DNA from: Agrobacterium larrymoorei
GTDB lineage: Bacteria; Pseudomonadota; Alphaproteobacteria; Rhizobiales; Rhizobiaceae
DNA length: 64,000 nt
Direction of reading: 5' to 3'
Assembly: GCF_030819275.1 (NCBI RefSeq)
Contig: NZ_JAUTBL010000001.1
Span: 1,483,501-1,547,500 of the forward strand
The notes under the pieces are model-generated. The model saw only the letters and a program-made list of their open reading frames with translations, did no database searches and was not told the origin of the DNA. Below are positions 11,827 to 34,599 of this stretch, piece after piece. The first letter of the stretch is position 1, and each line of letters opens with the position of its first letter. A program made the position numbers and the translations under genes.

Positions 11827-11927
11827 TCAAAAAAACGTCATATTAATAGCAGTTATGCAATTCACGCATTGCTGCCCTGCGAGGGCCGCGCTTTTCAGGC
11901 CGGGATGACCAGAGTATATATTGATCA

Positions 11928-12047
11928 TCGAAACGACGCACTCCTCCTCCCAGCGTCGCTCGATGTGGATTGGCGATACTCCTCCTCCCAATTGCCAATC
12001 AAGTTCAAAGCCTGCCGCACCTCCTCCCGCGGCAGGCTTTTTCTTTT
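11928..12047 (+). ncRNA. Alpha-r14-type (NfeR1-like) trans-acting small RNA
   Basis: Three consecutive hairpins each display an anti-Shine-Dalgarno loop. Hairpin 1 has CGACGC/GCGTCG (11934-11958) around ACTCCTCCTCCCA. Hairpin 2 has GATTGGCGAT/ATTGCCAATC (11968-12000) around the identical 13-base loop. Hairpin 3 has GCCTGCCGC/GCGGCAGGC (12010-12037) around ACCTCCTCCC and is followed by TTTTT, making it the terminator. Known alpha-r14 RNAs of rhizobia have this layout and pair with ribosome binding sites through CCUCCUCCC. A TATATT at 11917-11922 is a possible -10 box. The RNA is convergent with nasA. Confidence 0.88.
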
Positions 12048-12167: not shown

Positions 12168-14826
12168 TCACTCGGCTGAGGTTTTCAGGCAACCGTCGAT
12201 GATGGTGCGGATTTCCGCGCGGCAGGAACCGCAATTGGTCCCGGCGTTGACGCGCGCCCCTACCGCCTCAACCGTGTGGCAACCCTCGCGGATCGCGCTG
12301 GTGATCTGGTTGATGCCCACATTGAAGCAGGAGCAGACGGTGGCACCGGGATCGGGTCGTCCGGCACCGGGCCTGCCAGCGACAAGCGCGAACCGGTTGC
12401 CCATATCCTCATGCCGCTCGTTCAACTGCGTGACAGCCCAGTTTCGCGCAACCGCGACCGGTTCGGCCGCGATGAAAAGCGCCGCCAGCAATTTGTCGCC
12501 ATCGAAAAAGACCAGCCGAATGTCGCCGGTTCGATTGTCGGCATACCCAAGCGGCTCGATATGGGCATCGATCCCGAAGATGTCTCTGCTCCAGGAAATC
12601 CAGTCTTGCGGCATCGTGTCGAAGGCAAGCTCCAGACGATAACCGCCTTCGGCCTTGGCGAGAGCCCAATAGGCGCAATCCGGCTTTCGGGGAGCCATGG
12701 CACTCACCGCAAAGGCGTATGCCTTTGCAGGAAAGCGTCGGGCCGCAGCGGCGACGTTTTTCGATGCTGGTTGACCGGAATATGGATCGGTGGATGGCGG
12801 CACCAGCCTGTCGATCCGGGCATTGGCGGCGAACTGGTCGTTCCAATGCATCGGTACGAAGAGGCTGCCGCGTGCCTGCCTGTCGGTGACGAGTGCGCGC
12901 AGGACCACCGCGCCGAGCGGGCTTTCAACCTGCACCAGATCGGCGCTCGCAATTCCAGCTGCCATGGCATCGCGTGGATGAAGCTCGACGAAGGGCTCCG
13001 CGAGATGCGAAGACAGGCGGGCGCTTTTTGCCTGTGCGTGTCATGGTGTGCCACTGGTCGCGAATTCGCCCGGTGTTCAAGGTCAGCGGGTAGTCGGCGG
13101 TGGTGCGGTTGGTCTGCGGCAGAGCCGTCGGGACGAAGCGTGCCTTTCCATCCACATGGAAAAATTTGCCATCAGAGAAGAAGCGCGTCGTGTTTCGTGT
13201 TTCGCCGGAAGGCTGAGGCCAGTTGAAAGGCGCCATGTCGTCATAGGCTTGTGGCTCCACATCGGAATAAGCGCCGATATCGAAGTCGCGCGTGCCATTG
13301 TTCTCGAAGGCCGAAAGACTTGCGTGCTCGGCGAAAATCTCTGCAGGACTGGAATAGGTAAAGGCGTCCGGCTGGCCCATGCGCTTGCCGACTTCGGCAA
13401 ACTGCCACCAATCCGCCTTCGCTTCTCCGGGCGCCGTCAGATAGCCGCGCTGGCGGGAGATGCGTCTTTCCGAATTTGTGACGGTGCCATCCTTCTCGCC
13501 CCAGCCGAGCGAAGGAAGCAACACATGGGCGTGGCGCGCGGTATCGGTCGTCGCCATGATGTCGGAGACGACGACGAAGGGACATTGCTTCAGCGCCGCT
13601 TCCACGGACCCGGCATCGGGCATCGATACCACCGGGTTGGTCGCCATGATCCAGAGCGCCTTGATGCGACCATCGGCCACCGCCTGGAAAAGATCGACGG
13701 CTTTGAGGCCGGGCTTGTTCGCGATCGTCGGCGCTTGCCAGAAGCGCTGCACCCGGTCGCGATCCTCCGCGCTTTCGATCGCCATATGGGCGGCCAGCAT
13801 ATTTGCGAGACCACCCACCTCGCGCCCGCCCATGGCATTGGGCTGACCGGTCAGCGAAAACGGCCCCGCGCCGGGCTTGCCGATGCGGCCCGTCGCCAGA
13901 TGACAGTTAATAATGGCGTTGACTTTGTCGGTGCCACTGGACGACTGGTTGACGCCCTGGCTGTAGCAGGTGACGACTTTTTCGGTGCGCTCGAAAAGCT
14001 CATAGAAGCGGATGAGCTCAGCAAGGCTTAAGCCCGTTGCCTCGACGATGCTCGCCAAGCTGATGTCAGAGGCGGTTCGGACGGCTTCTTCGAAACCGAG
14101 CGTGTGGCTTTCGATATAGGTGGTGTCGAGCGTCGCGCCCTTGGCCAGATGCGCCAGCAGTGCGGTAAAAAGAGCCACATCGCCATCCGGTCTGATGGCA
14201 AGATGCATGTCCGCAATATCACAGGTCATGGTGCGGCGAGGATCGATCACCACCACCTTCATTTCAGGCCGTTCGGCTTTGGCCGCTGCAAGGCGCTGAT
14301 AGATGACCGGGTGGCACCAGGCGAGATTGGAACCGGTCAGGATGACGAGATCGGCGAGGAAGAGGTCTTCATAGAGGCCGGGAACGGTATCCGAGCCAAA
14401 GGCGCGGCGGTGGCCTGCCACGGAGGACGACATGCAGAGCCGCGAATTGGTGTCGATATTGGCCGACCCGATAAAGCCCTTCATAAGCTTGTTGGCGAGG
14501 TAATAGTCTTCGGTCAGCAATTGTCCGGACACGTAGAAGGCAACCGAATCCGGTCCGTGCATTGCGATCGCTTCGGAAAATTTCGAGGCGATGAGGTCAA
14601 GCGCCTCATCCCAGTTCACCCGTGCGCCGTCTATCTGCGGATAAAGCAGCCGGTTTTCGAGATCGAGTGTTTCGCCAAGGGCCGATCCCTTGGAGCAGAG
14701 CCTGCCGTAATTGGCCGGATGCTCCGGATCGCCCTTCACCGACACGCCGCCAGCATCATCGATTTTCGCGATGACGCCGCAGCCGACGCCGCAGTAGGGA
14801 CAGGTGGTCTTGACCTCGTGTGCCAT
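12168..14826 (-). pseudogene. nasA: Assimilatory nitrate reductase catalytic subunit, frameshifted
   Basis: The intact protein would be 885 residues: an N-terminal [4Fe-4S] site (C9, C12, C16, C44), a molybdopterin-binding oxidoreductase domain, and a C-terminal BFD-type [2Fe-2S] domain with CSC and CGSC. It reduces nitrate to nitrite in the cytosol. Translation from ATG 14826 leaves the frame after residue about 599, at five T (A5 in the coding sense) at 13025-13029. Four A would restore TGKSARLSSHLAEPFVELHP and join the remaining frame exactly. As written, the first frame stops at 12925 after 633 residues. Either the gene is broken or the run was miscounted. The overlapping stop/start region places it 2 bases after nirD. 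Confidence 0.9.
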
Positions 14827-19505: not shown

Positions 19506-20804
19506 TCAAGAGGCGGCCTTGATCGAAAGGCTTGCGAGATAGGCGGACGGGTTTTCTGGATCGAAGACCTTGCCGTCGAAGAAGGTCTCCTTGCCGCGAG
19601 AGGTCGAGGCCGGAATATCGGCAGCCGCAACACCCAGATCCTTTGCGGCTGCGCGCCACAGGTCTTCTCGGTTCACCTGCGACACCAGCGCCTTGATGTC
19701 GGTATCGGGTGCGAACTTGCCCCAGCGGATATTCTCGGCAATGAACCAGCTGTCATGGCTCTGGAACGGATAGGATGCGGCGTCCTTCCAGAACTTCATG
19801 TAGAGATCGGTGCCATGGGCGACGCGGCCATTGCCGTAATTGATGTCGCCCTTCAAGCGACCGAGCACATCCTTCGGCGGAACGTTGAACCACTGGCGCT
19901 TGCCGAGAATGGTGGACATTTCTTCCTTGTTGTCCATGCTGTCGCACCATTGCTGGGCTTCCATCACGGCCATCAGCATGGCCTTGGCGGCGTTCGGGTT
20001 CTTCTCCACCCAGTCGGCGCGCATGCCGAGTGCCTTTTCGGGGTGACCCTTCCACAGTTCTCCGGTGGTACAGGCGGTAAAGCCGATGCCCTGGTTGACG
20101 AGCTGCTCGTTCCAGGGTTCGCCGACACAGAAGACGTCCATATTGCCGACCTTCATATTGGCAACCATCTGCGGTGGCGGAACGACGATGGTGGAAACGT
20201 CCTTGTCCGGATCGATGCCGCCTGCTGCCAGCCAATAGCGGATCCATAGGTCATGCGTGCCGCCCGGGAACGTCATGGCCGCTTTGATCTCCTTACCGTC
20301 CGCCTTCTTCTTCTCGAAAGCAGCCTTGAGCTTGGCGGAGTCGAGCTGGACGCCGGTGTCGGCATATTCCTTGGCAACGGAGATGCCCTGGCTATCGAGA
20401 TTGAGACGGGCGAGGATCGCCATTGGCACCGGCACGTTGTTTTGCGTGACCTTGCCGGTGTGCATGAGATAAGGCATCGGGGTCAGAATATGCGCACCGT
20501 CGATCCCGTTGGACGCGCCGCCGAGAACGAGGTTGTCACGTGTTGCGCCCCACGAGGCCTGCTTTAAAACTTCGACGTCGGGCATGCCATGCTTGGCAAA
20601 CAGACCCTTCTCAGAGGCGACGATCAGGGGCGCGGCGTCGGTCAGTGCGATGAAGCCGAGTTTTGCACCCTTGACTTCAGGTTCGGACGTGGCAGCGAAG
20701 GCGCCAGATGGGAAGGCTGTCCGCACGGCGGTAATCAGGGCGGCGGTTGCCGTTGTCTTCAGGATCGAGCGGCGGCTGATCGAACTGGAAAGCATTTTCT
20801 TCAT
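19506..20804 (-). CDS. nrtA: Nitrate ABC transporter substrate-binding protein
   Basis: The 432-residue product starts with a twin-arginine signal (SRRSILK at residues 10-16, then a hydrophobic stretch and AFA-A cleavage near residue 38), so it is exported folded by Tat. The body is the NrtA/CmpA fold, with GFIALTDAAPLIVASEKGLF, WIRYWLAAGGIDPDKD and FCVGEPWNEQLV. It binds nitrate in the periplasm for NrtBC. The first gene of the nrtABC-nirBD-nasA operon, it is preceded by a long regulated leader. Confidence 0.95.
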   Translation of the reverse strand: MKKMLSSSISRRSILKTTATAALITAVRTAFPSGAFAATSEPEVKGAKLGFIALTDAAPLIVASEKGLFAKHGMPDVEVLKQASWGATRDNLVLGGASNGIDGAHILTPMPYLMHTGKVTQNNVPVPMAILARLNLDSQGISVAKEYADTGVQLDSAKLKAAFEKKKADGKEIKAAMTFPGGTHDLWIRYWLAAGGIDPDKDVSTIVVPPPQMVANMKVGNMDVFCVGEPWNEQLVNQGIGFTACTTGELWKGHPEKALGMRADWVEKNPNAAKAMLMAVMEAQQWCDSMDNKEEMSTILGKRQWFNVPPKDVLGRLKGDINYGNGRVAHGTDLYMKFWKDAASYPFQSHDSWFIAENIRWGKFAPDTDIKALVSQVNREDLWRAAAKDLGVAAADIPASTSRGKETFFDGKVFDPENPSAYLASLSIKAAS

Positions 20805-20994
20805 GTCGCATGTTCCCCTTTGGCGGCCTCATGGCGCCCTATGATTTTCAAAGCCCAAAAACAAAAAAAACGCCGCTCGGTTATGCGCCTTCGGAACGGG
20901 AGGAGGGTTCCGGGCTGCATACCTTGCGACGTCGATGTCGTTTGAAGAACGCTTGAGCGCGTCCCTGCTGCTCTGATCGCCGTTGACCCGAGCG
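20805..20994 (-). promoter_or_regulatory. NasT-responsive antitermination leader of the nrtABC-nir-nas operon
   Basis: Read on the minus strand, the leader has two hairpins with six-base loops that both have A at position 1 and G at position 4, the ANTAR recognition pattern: P1 GAGCAGC-AGGGAC-GCGCTC (20955-20973, one bulged A) and P2 CGAC-ATCGAC-GTCG (20927-20940), 14 bases apart. The 3' half of P2 is also the base of the terminator stem that follows, so the two folds exclude each other. This matches the known mechanism in which NasT holds P1/P2 and prevents termination when nitrate releases it from NasS. Confidence 0.85.
20863..20932 (-). terminator. Attenuator terminator in the nrtA leader, tip loop CCUCCUCCC
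   Basis: The base stem is ACGTCGC/GCGGCGT (with one G-U), directly followed by eight T. It continues as GGTATGC/GCATAACC with one bulge, then GCC/GGC, and ends in CGGAAC/GTTCCG around the 9-base loop CCTCCTCCC. Its first arm overlaps the 3' half of hairpin P2, so binding of NasT should block it. The terminated transcript would be about 130 nt from the sigma-54 start. Confidence 0.8.
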
Positions 20995-21004
20995 TTTTAT
21001 ACCA

Positions 21005-21020
21005 AGCAAAGACCGTGCCA
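21005..21020 (-). promoter_or_regulatory. Sigma-54 (RpoN) promoter of the nitrate operon
   Basis: TGGCACG-GTCT-TTGCT matches the -24/-12 consensus in all main positions, with ten bases between the GG and the GC. The transcription start would be near 20995. It implies activation by an enhancer-binding protein, most likely NtrC under nitrogen limitation. I did not find a clear NtrC palindrome upstream. Confidence 0.9.
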
Positions 21021-21164
21021 GTTTTTGTGGTTCTGCTTAGTCTGTTGATAGTTATCGGCTTTTTTACTGTGTCGGATAATCAGTCGTTTATCGATCAAAC
21101 AGTTTTAGGCTATTATTTAATCTCGGCGCCTGTGACGGGCATTAAAAATGCAGCAGTCCACCTT

Positions 21165-22437
21165 TCAAAACTCGCCAATACCAAGGCCGCTGATCGCCGA
21201 GTTCTTGACGGAAAAGCGCTCGACATAGGCAGGAATATCGGATGGATCGAAGGTTAAGCCATCCATGAAGCGCGTCGTAACACTGGGATCGTCGTCCTGA
21301 AGCGCGTGGTCGCCGCCGCCGAGTGCTGCGCGATAGAGATCCGGTCGATAGGCAGCTGACGCCGCCCTGGCGCCGTCCTGCGAAAACGCCGTCTGCCCCC
21401 AGCGGATCATCTGGCTATAAATCCAAAGTGCCTGGTTGGGGTGCGGGTAGTTGGCGCGATCGTCGTGAAACTGGAAGTAATTATCGATGACGCGCTGGTT
21501 TCCTTGGGCATCTATGTTGAACTCTCCCCCCCAAAACCCGCCGCAGAATATGTTCGGGCGCGCCGATATAACGTGGATCGGCAAGCGCCTCGCTCAAAGC
21601 GGGGCGATTTTCCAGCCTGTCGCACCAGCGCGCGGCCGCATCCAACGCCACGAGAAGTCGGGCTACGCTTTCCTGCTGGGTTTCCGCCCAATCCGGCCTC
21701 ATGCCGATGACTTTCTCAGGGGCTGATGGCCATATGTCCTGCTTGACGGCAACGATCTGACCAACGCCGCGCTCGCATGCGATCATGTTCCACGGTGCAC
21801 CGACGCAAAAGCCGTCGATCGCACCCGCCGCAAGTGCATCAGACGTGAGTGGCGGCGGCACGACGACCAGCTTCACATCCTTGTCCGGATGAATGCCTCC
21901 AGCCGCCAGCCAGTAACGAAACTCGTAATTATGCGAGGAGAAAGGATAGGTCATGCCGAGAGTCGGCATGGGTTCTCCGTTTGCGCGCATCGCATCCAGT
22001 ACAGTCTTCAAGGCGCGGGCGTTGTCTAGCGCACCAGCCGTTGCAGAGACGCCGGTTGTCTCCCGCATACGGGTAAACAGCGCCGTGGACAGCGTGATGG
22101 CATTGCCGCCACGCCCCAGAGAAAAGGGCGTGATCGTCGGAGAGGGGTTCGAGCCAAGACCGAGCATCGAGGCAACCGGCATGGGTGATAGCATGTGCGC
22201 AATATCAAACTGACGGAAGGCGAGGCGGTCGCGCACATTTGCCCAGGAGACATCCTTGACCAGATCGAGCTTCAGGCCTTCCTTTTCAGCAAAGCCAAAT
22301 TCGGCGGCTGCGATCAGCACGGAGGCATCCACCAGCGGTATGAAGCCGGCTCTTAGCGTCCGCTGTCTGTCATTACCGACCGGTGCGGGTGCCGCGATAC
22401 CGGATTGTTTCTCTGCAAGATCGTCCATGACCGTCAT
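21165..22437 (-). pseudogene. nasS: Nitrate-sensing regulator NasS, frameshifted
   Basis: The corrected protein of about 423 residues is an NrtA-like periplasmic-binding fold without a signal peptide (LRAGFIPLVDASVLIAAAEF, FRYWLAAGGIHPDKD, FCVGAPWNMIACERG). Placed directly after nasT, it is NasS, the cytosolic nitrate sensor that sequesters NasT. From ATG 22437 the frame is lost at a G7 run (C7 on the plus strand, 21526-21532) after residue about 302. Six G would give RRVLGGEFNIDAQGNQRVI and join the remaining frame. As written, the protein ends at 318 residues and lacks its C-terminal lobe. Confidence 0.87.
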
Positions 22438-22465: not shown

Positions 22466-23053
22466 TCACATCAATAGTCCGGCAGCCGTGACCACGCTCT
22501 GCGCGATCTCGGACAATTTCTTTTTCTCATTCATCGCCGTCTGGCGCAGCAGCGCGAAGGCTTCCTCTTCGGAAAGCCCGCGCATCTTCATCAGAATACC
22601 TTTGGCGCGCTCGACCACCTTGCGTTCTTCGAGCGCGGATTTTGCCTCGGCCAGTTCTCTTTGCAGGCGGCTGAAGGCGTTGAAGCGGCTCACCGCCATG
22701 TCGAGGATCGGCTTTACCCGTTCTTTCTTCAAGCCATCGACAATATAGGCGGAGACTCCGGCTTCGACCGCAGCCTCGATGGAGGCGGTGTCCGATCTGT
22801 CCACGAACATGGCGATGGGCCGGCTGACCGTGCGGGTCAGCTGAAACAGATGCTCCATCATATCGCGATTGGGATTTTCAAGATCGATGACGATCACGTC
22901 CGGCTGCAGCGTCTCGATGGTGCGCGCAACGCCGTTGACCTCATGAATGACGGTGACCCGCAGATGGCCCGCTTCACGCAGGCCCTCCTCAATAATCGAG
23001 GCGCGGATTGCGTTTTCATCGATCACAAGAATGGTCAGGTCTCGAAGCGTCAT
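22466..23053 (-). CDS. nasT: ANTAR-domain antiterminator of nitrate assimilation
   Basis: The 195-residue product has an N-terminal receiver-like domain (LTILVIDEN, then VIVIDLENPNRD) and a C-terminal ANTAR domain (ERKVVERAKGILMKMRGLSE to the end) that binds RNA hexaloops. NasT antiterminates nitrate operons when NasS releases it. I chose the ATG at 23053, where family members begin; the frame extends 12 codons upstream. nasS follows after 28 bases. Its probable target is the leader in front of nrtA. Confidence 0.93.
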   Translation of the reverse strand: MTLRDLTILVIDENAIRASIIEEGLREAGHLRVTVIHEVNGVARTIETLQPDVIVIDLENPNRDMMEHLFQLTRTVSRPIAMFVDRSDTASIEAAVEAGVSAYIVDGLKKERVKPILDMAVSRFNAFSRLQRELAEAKSALEERKVVERAKGILMKMRGLSEEEAFALLRQTAMNEKKKLSEIAQSVVTAAGLLM

Positions 23054-23209
23054 GCGCGCATCAATGACGCAGCGCAGTGGAATTGGCAATCTTTTTCGGC
23101 AGGTCTAAAATTTAGGCAAATGCTGTTGAGCACAGCTTTCTTTGGTCGCCGTCATTCAGGCGCATGAGCGGTTCTTGACAAATATATGATGTTTGGAAAG
23201 GTTACTCGC

Positions 23210-30677: not shown

Positions 30678-30706
30678 CTTGACGGACCAGATCAAATAGG
30701 TCTATC
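30678..30706 (+). promoter_or_regulatory. Probable promoter of the riboswitch transcript
   Basis: CTTGAC at 30678-30683 and CTATCT 18 bases later resemble the alphaproteobacterial housekeeping consensus (CTTGAC-N17-CTATAT). They lie just before the riboswitch. Confidence 0.5.
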
Positions 30707-30715
30707 TGGCTTATG

Positions 30716-30912
30716 ACGGTTCCAAGCGAGAGATCGCGAGGAATAATAGGGAACACGGTGCGGGGATTGTCTCCAAGGCCGTGGCTGCCCCCGCAACTGT
30801 TAGCGGATTGTCGAGCACTCGTGACGCATTTACCTGCGTCGGGCCACTGCGAATCTATCGTGGGAAGGCGGGCAAGACGATCATCCGTGAGCCAGGAGAC
30901 CTGCCGTCATAA
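30716..30912 (+). promoter_or_regulatory. Cobalamin riboswitch
   Basis: The conserved core is present in order: GGTTCC, TAATAGGGAACACGGTG, GGCTGCCCCCGCAACTGT, the B12-box element GCCACTG at 30843-30849, GGGAAGGCGGG, and GAGCCAGGAGACCTGCC at 30889-30905. It precedes the BtuFCD-like importer, so adenosylcobalamin should repress the importer. No terminator follows the aptamer; a strong Shine-Dalgarno (CAGGAGACGTC before the ATG at 30959) lies downstream, so control is probably at translation. Confidence 0.93.
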
Positions 30913-30958
30913 GTTCATTCCAATGTCACGGGCGGGGATGCCCTGAACAGGAGACGTC

Positions 30959-34450: not shown

Positions 34451-34599
34451 TGCGAAAGTCCGCTTTACGATCTTGAAGCGGAAGGCGCTCATCCTACATC
34501 TCCATCAACCCGCTGGTCCGGGCCCCTCTGGTGAAAGTCCCGGCGCTTTCACGATGTCGGACCGTTTCCGACACCGCGCCGAGACTAAGAGGTCCGTTC

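Follow-up and report, generated by a model that had tools for sequence, protein, structure and literature searches.

ANTAR proteins bind two hairpins with hexanucleotide loops through the bases A1 and G4, and in the attenuators of NasT, NasR and EutV the second of these hairpins excludes a terminator (PMC3369931, available part). The accessible portions of two further reports indicate that nitrate releases NasT from NasS (PMC3795266) and that NasT prevents the terminator at nosR in Bradyrhizobium (PMC6759348). The small RNAs of the ar14 group (NfeR1, cuckoo RNAs) share a motif described, in the available part of the source, as ultraconserved and present in three loops; with this motif NfeR1, which nitrogen stress induces, silences ntrB (PMC10746234). 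Terminated leaders of Sinorhizobium can also serve as small RNAs: according to the excerpts available, the attenuator stub rnTrpL, from the same family as the organism considered here, acts in trans (PMC7143759), and the terminated SAM-II riboswitch leaders RZ and RA persist as sRNAs (PMC9373788). Unlike the nrtA leader analyzed below, none of these three RNAs is ANTAR-controlled. We know of no CCUCC loop in any of them. The literature searched, mostly partial texts, yielded no report of an anti-Shine-Dalgarno loop on the terminator of a NasT/ANTAR leader, and nitrate and nrt are absent from the main text, the part covered here, of a survey of Agrobacterium non-coding RNAs (PMC3738593).

The nrtA leader and its attenuator class

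The leader lies in the window, i.e. the whole 64,000-nucleotide stretch of Agrobacterium larrymoorei DNA that was analyzed. The open reading frames, together with Pfam and NCBIfam matches, give the minus-strand order nasT, nasS, nrtA and then nrtBC, nirB, nirD and nasA; the nirD assignment and part of the order of this nrt-nir-nas operon are what we take to be the case from general knowledge. The RpoN element and the leader sit between nasS and nrtA, the product of which shows best-segment identities of 77–98% to 80 homologues (among the matches listed). The features of the window to which the analysis refers are:

11923..12044, plus strand: ar14 (NfeR1-type) sRNA with three CCUCCUCCC loops (Rfam RF02344, 116.9 bits, gathering cut-off 58.8)
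19506..20804, minus strand: nrtA, binding protein of a nitrate ABC transporter (Pfam NMT1_2)
20815..20820, minus strand: AAGGGG, judged from the sequence to be the probable Shine-Dalgarno element of nrtA
20863..20932, minus strand: intrinsic terminator with base GTCGC/GCGGC, apical stem CGGAAC/GTTCCG and T8 (fold)
20898..20906, minus strand: apical loop CCUCCUCCC, Shine-Dalgarno-complementary (sequence, fold)
20927..20940, minus strand: P2 hairpin CGAC-ATCGAC-GTCG, with A1 and G4 (sequence)
20947..20964, minus strand: middle hairpin in the interval between P1 and P2 (fold)
20973..20990, minus strand: P1 hairpin of the ANTAR target, hexaloop AACGGC with A1 and G4 (fold)
21006..21020, minus strand: RpoN (-24/-12) promoter TGGCACGGTCTTTGC (sequence; within the Rfam narK model)
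21165..22437, minus strand: nasS, nitrate sensor, with the frame broken near 21.53 kb in the assembly
22466..23089, minus strand: nasT, response regulator with an ANTAR domain (Pfam ANTAR PF03861, E 1.5e-21; Response_reg)

The leader occupies 20994–20863 on the minus strand and closes with the terminator, giving a predicted terminated RNA of about 132 nt with a start site that the promoter would place near 20994; an RpoN-type attenuator before nrtA that yields a short RNA of this size was also what the original prediction contained. It was compared with the nrtA loci of 80 named genomes, where, with the window included, 73 leaders were recognized by the P2-terminator sequence and no leader of this type was found at eight of the 81 nrtA places (L052, L065, L072, L075, L077–L080). 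The element TGGC[AG][CT]-N5-TTGC precedes all 73 leader-bearing nrtA genes, and the 69 leaders with both ends placed are 122–139 nt long.

The locus combines an ANTAR protein encoded nearby, two hairpins with A1/G4 hexaloops and a second hairpin that overlaps the terminator, the arrangement of the NasT, NasR and EutV attenuators. P2 and the terminator are mutually exclusive because GTCG is both the 3′ arm of P2 and the start of the terminator base. By analogy with this family, from which the switching is carried over, the leader is assigned as a transcription attenuator of the known, NasS-NasT-controlled kind.

The 132-nt RNA folds at −54.4 kcal/mol. As originally described, the tip of the terminator reads CGGAAC-CCTCCTCCC-GTTCCG, with a 6-bp apical stem (arms 20912–20907 and 20897–20892) that encloses CCTCCTCCC, and the T8 run follows at 20870–20863 (minus strand). 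The Shine-Dalgarno-complementary loop was also rightly thought to be exposed: its predicted probability of being unpaired is 0.99–1.00, and, when P2 is enforced in the read-through RNA, the apical hairpin persists in the fold with the loop still open.

Conservation of the structure was assessed in 45 of the 73 leaders. The A1 and G4 bases of both hexaloops (AACGGC, ATCGAC) are invariant, as are the three inner stem pairs of P2, and the terminator basal stem is 100% paired in these leaders, the selection pattern of which includes this stem. With the inner stem of P2 invariant and the terminator base nearly so, covariation cannot probe either, and the count was made for P1 (96.7% of cells paired, three pairs changed on both sides) and the middle hairpin (85.5%, also three such pairs), with P2 left out. 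Together, the two hairpins have 94.2% of cells paired and 22 cells changed on both sides, compared with 9.3 in shuffles, only 4 of 500 of which reach that number. A sliding control shifted by +1 gives more doubly changed cells than the structure (31) but only 34.8% of paired cells, and its covariation score is 0.133, compared with 0.178 for the structure. A search for P2-like sites elsewhere in the genome was abandoned as the pattern is too short (81 matches versus 69 in controls).

The leader matches the Rfam model of narK RNA (RF03032) with an E-value of 0.0004 and 29.4 bits, below the gathering cut-off of 43.2. The RpoN element, P1 with its AACGGC loop and P2 ending GACGUCGC align over the whole 72-position model; the leader differs in having the extra middle hairpin and in preceding nrtA, and the model ends before the terminator and its loop. 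Among 11 relatives, the loci of L060 (35.9 bits) and L003 (35.7 bits) match, again below gathering, and the other nine have none with E of 0.01 or below. Judged by these scores, the leader is a sub-threshold relative of narK RNA and not a strict member of RF03032. In Sinorhizobium, SMb20436 is termed a NarK homologue (PMC6616083) and has an RpoN-type promoter for which the start site is mapped (PMC3616915), as far as the available text of both sources goes. Two other RNAs of the window score above Rfam gathering, a cobalamin riboswitch (30700–30922, plus strand, 120.2 bits) and a terC RNA (34510–34569, plus strand, 60.9 bits).

The CUCC core of the terminator tip

A CUCC core is present in the loops of 50 of the 73 leaders, and in 34 of these 50 it is part of CCUCCC. 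A second sample was obtained with a loop-blind pattern search of 394 genomes of the family, which produced 69 matches in 67 genomes; G207, G010 and G067 were excluded as unlikely leaders and the doubtful G201, G246, G358 and G166 were retained, for a total of 66 sequences. CTCC was found in 35 of the 66 sequences and in 13 of the 20 genus codes, with a slight lean toward the motif because, among several hairpins, one with a CTCC loop was chosen first and otherwise the longest; the two samples share species and are not independent. By comparison, CTCC occurs in 14 of the 434 other terminator-like hairpins collected over 783 kb, which come partly from the same 80 neighborhoods with only identical ones merged, and these 14 include three nrtA leaders missed by the filter and one ar14, leaving 10 of 430. 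In the window's own genome, 3 of 168 background hairpins contain CTCC, ar14 included. When only loops of 5–12 nt are considered, CUCC is found in 49 of 63 leaders versus 7 of 254 background hairpins.

The locus could be a plain attenuator, with a pyrimidine-rich loop that results from an unpaired, fast-folding tip or from slippage of the 3′ arm and with CUCC as a by-product. The composition fits, leader loops of 5–12 nt being 91% pyrimidine, and so do the resemblance of some loops to the adjacent arm (e.g. CTCCC beside TCCC in L018), the absence of CUCC from a third of the leaders, and the pairing of the loop with the 5′ part of the leader or the nrtA start, which is no better than that of permuted loops. 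However, composition accounts for only part of the excess: permuting the letters of each loop leaves a mean of 22.3 loops with CUCC, and none of 1000 permutations reaches 50. In background hairpins whose 3′ arm is pyrimidine-rich, the loops are 53% pyrimidine and CUCC is present in only 5 of 49 cases. The core is carried by 14 different flanking arms, and it is found also on GGAT/ATCC, GAAC/GTTC and CGGC/GCCA arms, which show no sign of copying. Taken with these observations, the by-product explanation is possible but doubtful.

On the nrtA tree, taken without an inferred root, the CUCC state needs 15 changes and is present in both halves about the midpoint. In neutral simulations that start from TCCTCCC, with the loop length fixed and a motif-bearing root assumed, none of 300 runs reaches 50 leaves at twice the mean nrtA rate, whereas 10 of 300 (free composition) and 39 of 300 (pyrimidine-rich) do so at the mean rate and 117 and 162 of 300, respectively, at half the mean rate. 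The strength of the CUCC retention thus depends on the assumed rate, because the slower simulations often reach 50. The three codon positions of nrtA take 1.92, 1.04 and 11.94 steps per site (mean 5.0), and the unpaired linker before P2 takes 12–15; given the values for third positions and linker, the higher, third-codon-like rate is taken to be the fair one, which is a judgement. Two observations speak against special retention: loop columns filled in more than 60 rows change 5–12 times per site by parsimony, not far from the third-codon mean of 11.9, and, among 108 four-letter words at third positions, 5 persist equally well, in at least 50 rows. The retention of CUCC exceeds what neutral simulations give at a synonymous-like rate, and does not clearly do so at slower rates. 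As suggested by these comparisons, the Shine-Dalgarno-complementary loop is probably under selection.

The core is missing in 23 of the 73 leaders and wholly so in some clades (7 of 7 leaders of genus code g94). Given that about a third of the leaders, whole clades among them, are without it, CUCC is dispensable for attenuation. Members of the g94 clade (G094, G324, G283, G229, G390, G169) keep the terminator base and have a GGAGC-loop-GCTCC tip, with loops of 3–4 nt and no CU loop. The leader pattern was found in 3 of 121 genomes, one of which is the window's own, the other two being from the 117 of other families; one of these (G506) has the loop CCTCCC and the second is without CCTCCC.

The exact nine-mer and the ar14 RNAs

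That a real ar14-type gene lies in the window was correctly recognized at the outset. The nine-mer has four copies in the window, with 0.45 expected, and since three of the four are loops of this ar14, the one extra copy is unremarkable in itself. Genome-wide enrichment was considered and rejected, with 39 copies versus 50 of the reversed control. Six of the 39 sites have at least six pairs around the motif and a run of at least five T within 71 nt; five belong to ar14-type copies and the sixth is the tip of the nrtA leader.

The exact nine-mer CCTCCTCCC is present in one of the 73 nrtA leaders and in one of the 66 sequences of the second sample, in both cases that of the window's genome. The loops of the nearest relatives are CTCCTCCC (L001) and TCTCCTCCC (L002), those of other Agrobacterium are mostly ACCTCCC or CCTCCC, and Rhizobium and others have CCCTCCC, TCTCCC and TCCTCCC, with some unrelated loops (CATA, ATTG, TTTGTT). 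In the ar14 control, the exact nine-mer is present two to four times in each of 30 loci out of 30, which were taken from among the best-scoring matches to a model in which the motif adds to the score. The identity of the two loops claimed in the original prediction is thus real in the window's sequence and does not hold as a conserved feature: in related leaders the terminator is kept, the exact nine-mer is absent, and only the CUCC/CCUCCC core recurs.

Classing the leader as a member of ar14 fails on two counts. There is no RF02344 match in 20780–21100 at E up to 1, and, in place of the three-hairpin architecture, there is one CCUCCUCCC hairpin with a loop that is not kept among relatives. 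The likeness to ar14, NfeR1 and the cuckoo RNAs consists of the loop sequence, in this one species, and the nitrogen setting. By contrast, ar14 is a stand-alone gene with three loops and several exact motifs per locus, whereas the leader has a single loop that matches exactly in one case of 73, and the promoter is RpoD for NfeR1 (PMC10746234, available part) and of the RpoN type for the leader. Matches to ar14 at E up to 0.001 are found in 78 of 81 genomes of the family, 73 of them over the cut-off, and the window's genome has four. In one ar14 copy (L084, G000:C1 near 521414–521557), a fourth CCTCCTCCC lies directly upstream of the model.

As indicated by these sequences, the exact ar14 nine-mer in the leader is an accident of this species and a misleading match, and the loop of the leader is a looser, often lost element compared with the ar14 motif. 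The unit that appears relevant is CCUCCC, not CCUCCUCCC, in a tip that is moderately conserved and Shine-Dalgarno-complementary.

The exact nine-mer might even depend on a sequencing error, because one C in a C run distinguishes it from the CTCCTCCC loop of the nearest relative, L001. The same assembly has frame breaks in two genes. The frame of nasS, of which L001 has an intact 423-aa copy, is split in two near 21.53 kb, and comparison with L001, L002 and L011 places the break in a run of G; the nasA-type reductase (12168–14826) is also in two frames, as judged from the window's sequence. Both breaks may reflect either decay or assembly error. If they are assembly errors, less confidence can be placed in features that hinge on one base, the additional C in the loop included; if the nasS break is real, NasT would be unrestrained, attenuation weakened and the short RNA scarce. 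Against an error in the loop, L002 also has nine bases there, nasT, nrtA, nrtB and nrtC are free of frame breaks relative to L001, and a run of three C is rarely misread, all of which makes this explanation highly improbable.

Two further sites of the genome carry related motifs. The region L114:807-1110 (G000:C2 near 1867800) contains an ORF of 57 aa and, after it, two stretches that resemble hairpins, with CTCCTCCC, and one that resembles a terminator. We take this layout to resemble that of CIN1 (DUF1127 plus a CcsR-like sRNA); the CIN1-type reading was rejected, as Pfam (E up to 1) has no match to the small ORF and Rfam gives none at gathering. At L116:1043-1074 (G000:C2 near 2457855), an 11-bp minus-strand hairpin has a CCTCCTCCCT loop, with no run of at least five T within 71 nt downstream and no Rfam match at gathering.

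A possible second role of the tip

In the scheme that the family suggests, nitrogen shortage would lead RpoN to transcribe the leader. When nitrate is absent, NasS would hold NasT, the terminator would form and release a stub about 132 nt long; when nitrate is present, the freed NasT would hold P1 and P2, the terminator base could not close and the operon would be read. We consider it likely that the locus is such a NasS-NasT attenuator of the nrt-nir-nas operon and that its CUCC tip has a secondary role through Shine-Dalgarno complementarity, which would most simply consist of weak pairing between the stub and mRNAs. The stub alone would be free to diffuse, and the loop would be displayed in stub and read-through RNA alike. 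Because the loop is open in both states, the nitrate control that was originally proposed concerns the release of the short RNA, as expected from the family, and does not extend to the display of the loop.

A loop that stays exposed in the read-through mRNA could act in cis, by pairing with the nrtA ribosome site and damping translation. The tip hairpin indeed persists with P2 enforced, and in a first swap test none of 100 swapped start regions paired as well, although start codons were misplaced in some loci. After the starts were reassigned, with a shift at 23 of 66 loci, the signal was gone, 95 of 200 swaps being as good; permuted loops were as good or better in 96 of 100 cases and, with reassigned starts, in 200 of 200 (loops of at least 5 nt among the 66 leaders, 57 in the reassigned test). 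Furthermore, such damping would oppose induction, and we regard action in cis as very unlikely. A pseudoknot between the loop and the upstream leader was likewise rejected, with 88 of 100 permuted sets pairing as well.

Action of the stub in trans, as a nitrogen-controlled sRNA that blocks translation via its anti-Shine-Dalgarno loop in the manner of NfeR1, is made plausible by the precedents of NfeR1, which silences ntrB with the same motif (PMC10746234), and of rnTrpL (PMC7143759), both as given in the accessible text. The predicted duplex of the exposed loop with the ntrB start region has −7.3 kcal/mol, equal to that of ar14 loop 3 (loop 1 is stronger, −9.1); this energy is not specific because a CU-rich loop pairs with Shine-Dalgarno sites generally. 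The exact loop being confined to a single leader, the one short loop compared with the three of ar14, and the presence of ar14 itself in nearly all genomes of the family weigh against this role, which appears rather unlikely in the full NfeR1-like form. The stub may accumulate and act, by analogy with these RNAs, as a candidate regulator.

The broader version of this idea, in which rhizobial nitrate attenuators double as sRNA genes and the CCUCCC stub of about 125–135 nt damps nitrogen and transporter mRNAs, with ntrB as a candidate, alongside NfeR1, is, in our view, an unlikely one. If it were true, the stub would signal an active nitrogen response in the absence of nitrate, and ANTAR attenuation and a cuckoo-RNA loop would be combined in one molecule. 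Apart from the outcome, the case shows how claims about loops can be tested, namely, against other terminators, permuted letters and the gene tree. Should the CCUCCC tip be functional, regulation would reside in a terminator loop, a part that usually receives no attention; one promoter-attenuator would have two outputs, the operon mRNA when nitrate is present and a stub that silences mRNAs when it is absent; and the NasS-NasT switch would be linked to the circuit of NtrBC and NfeR1 that is known in Sinorhizobium.
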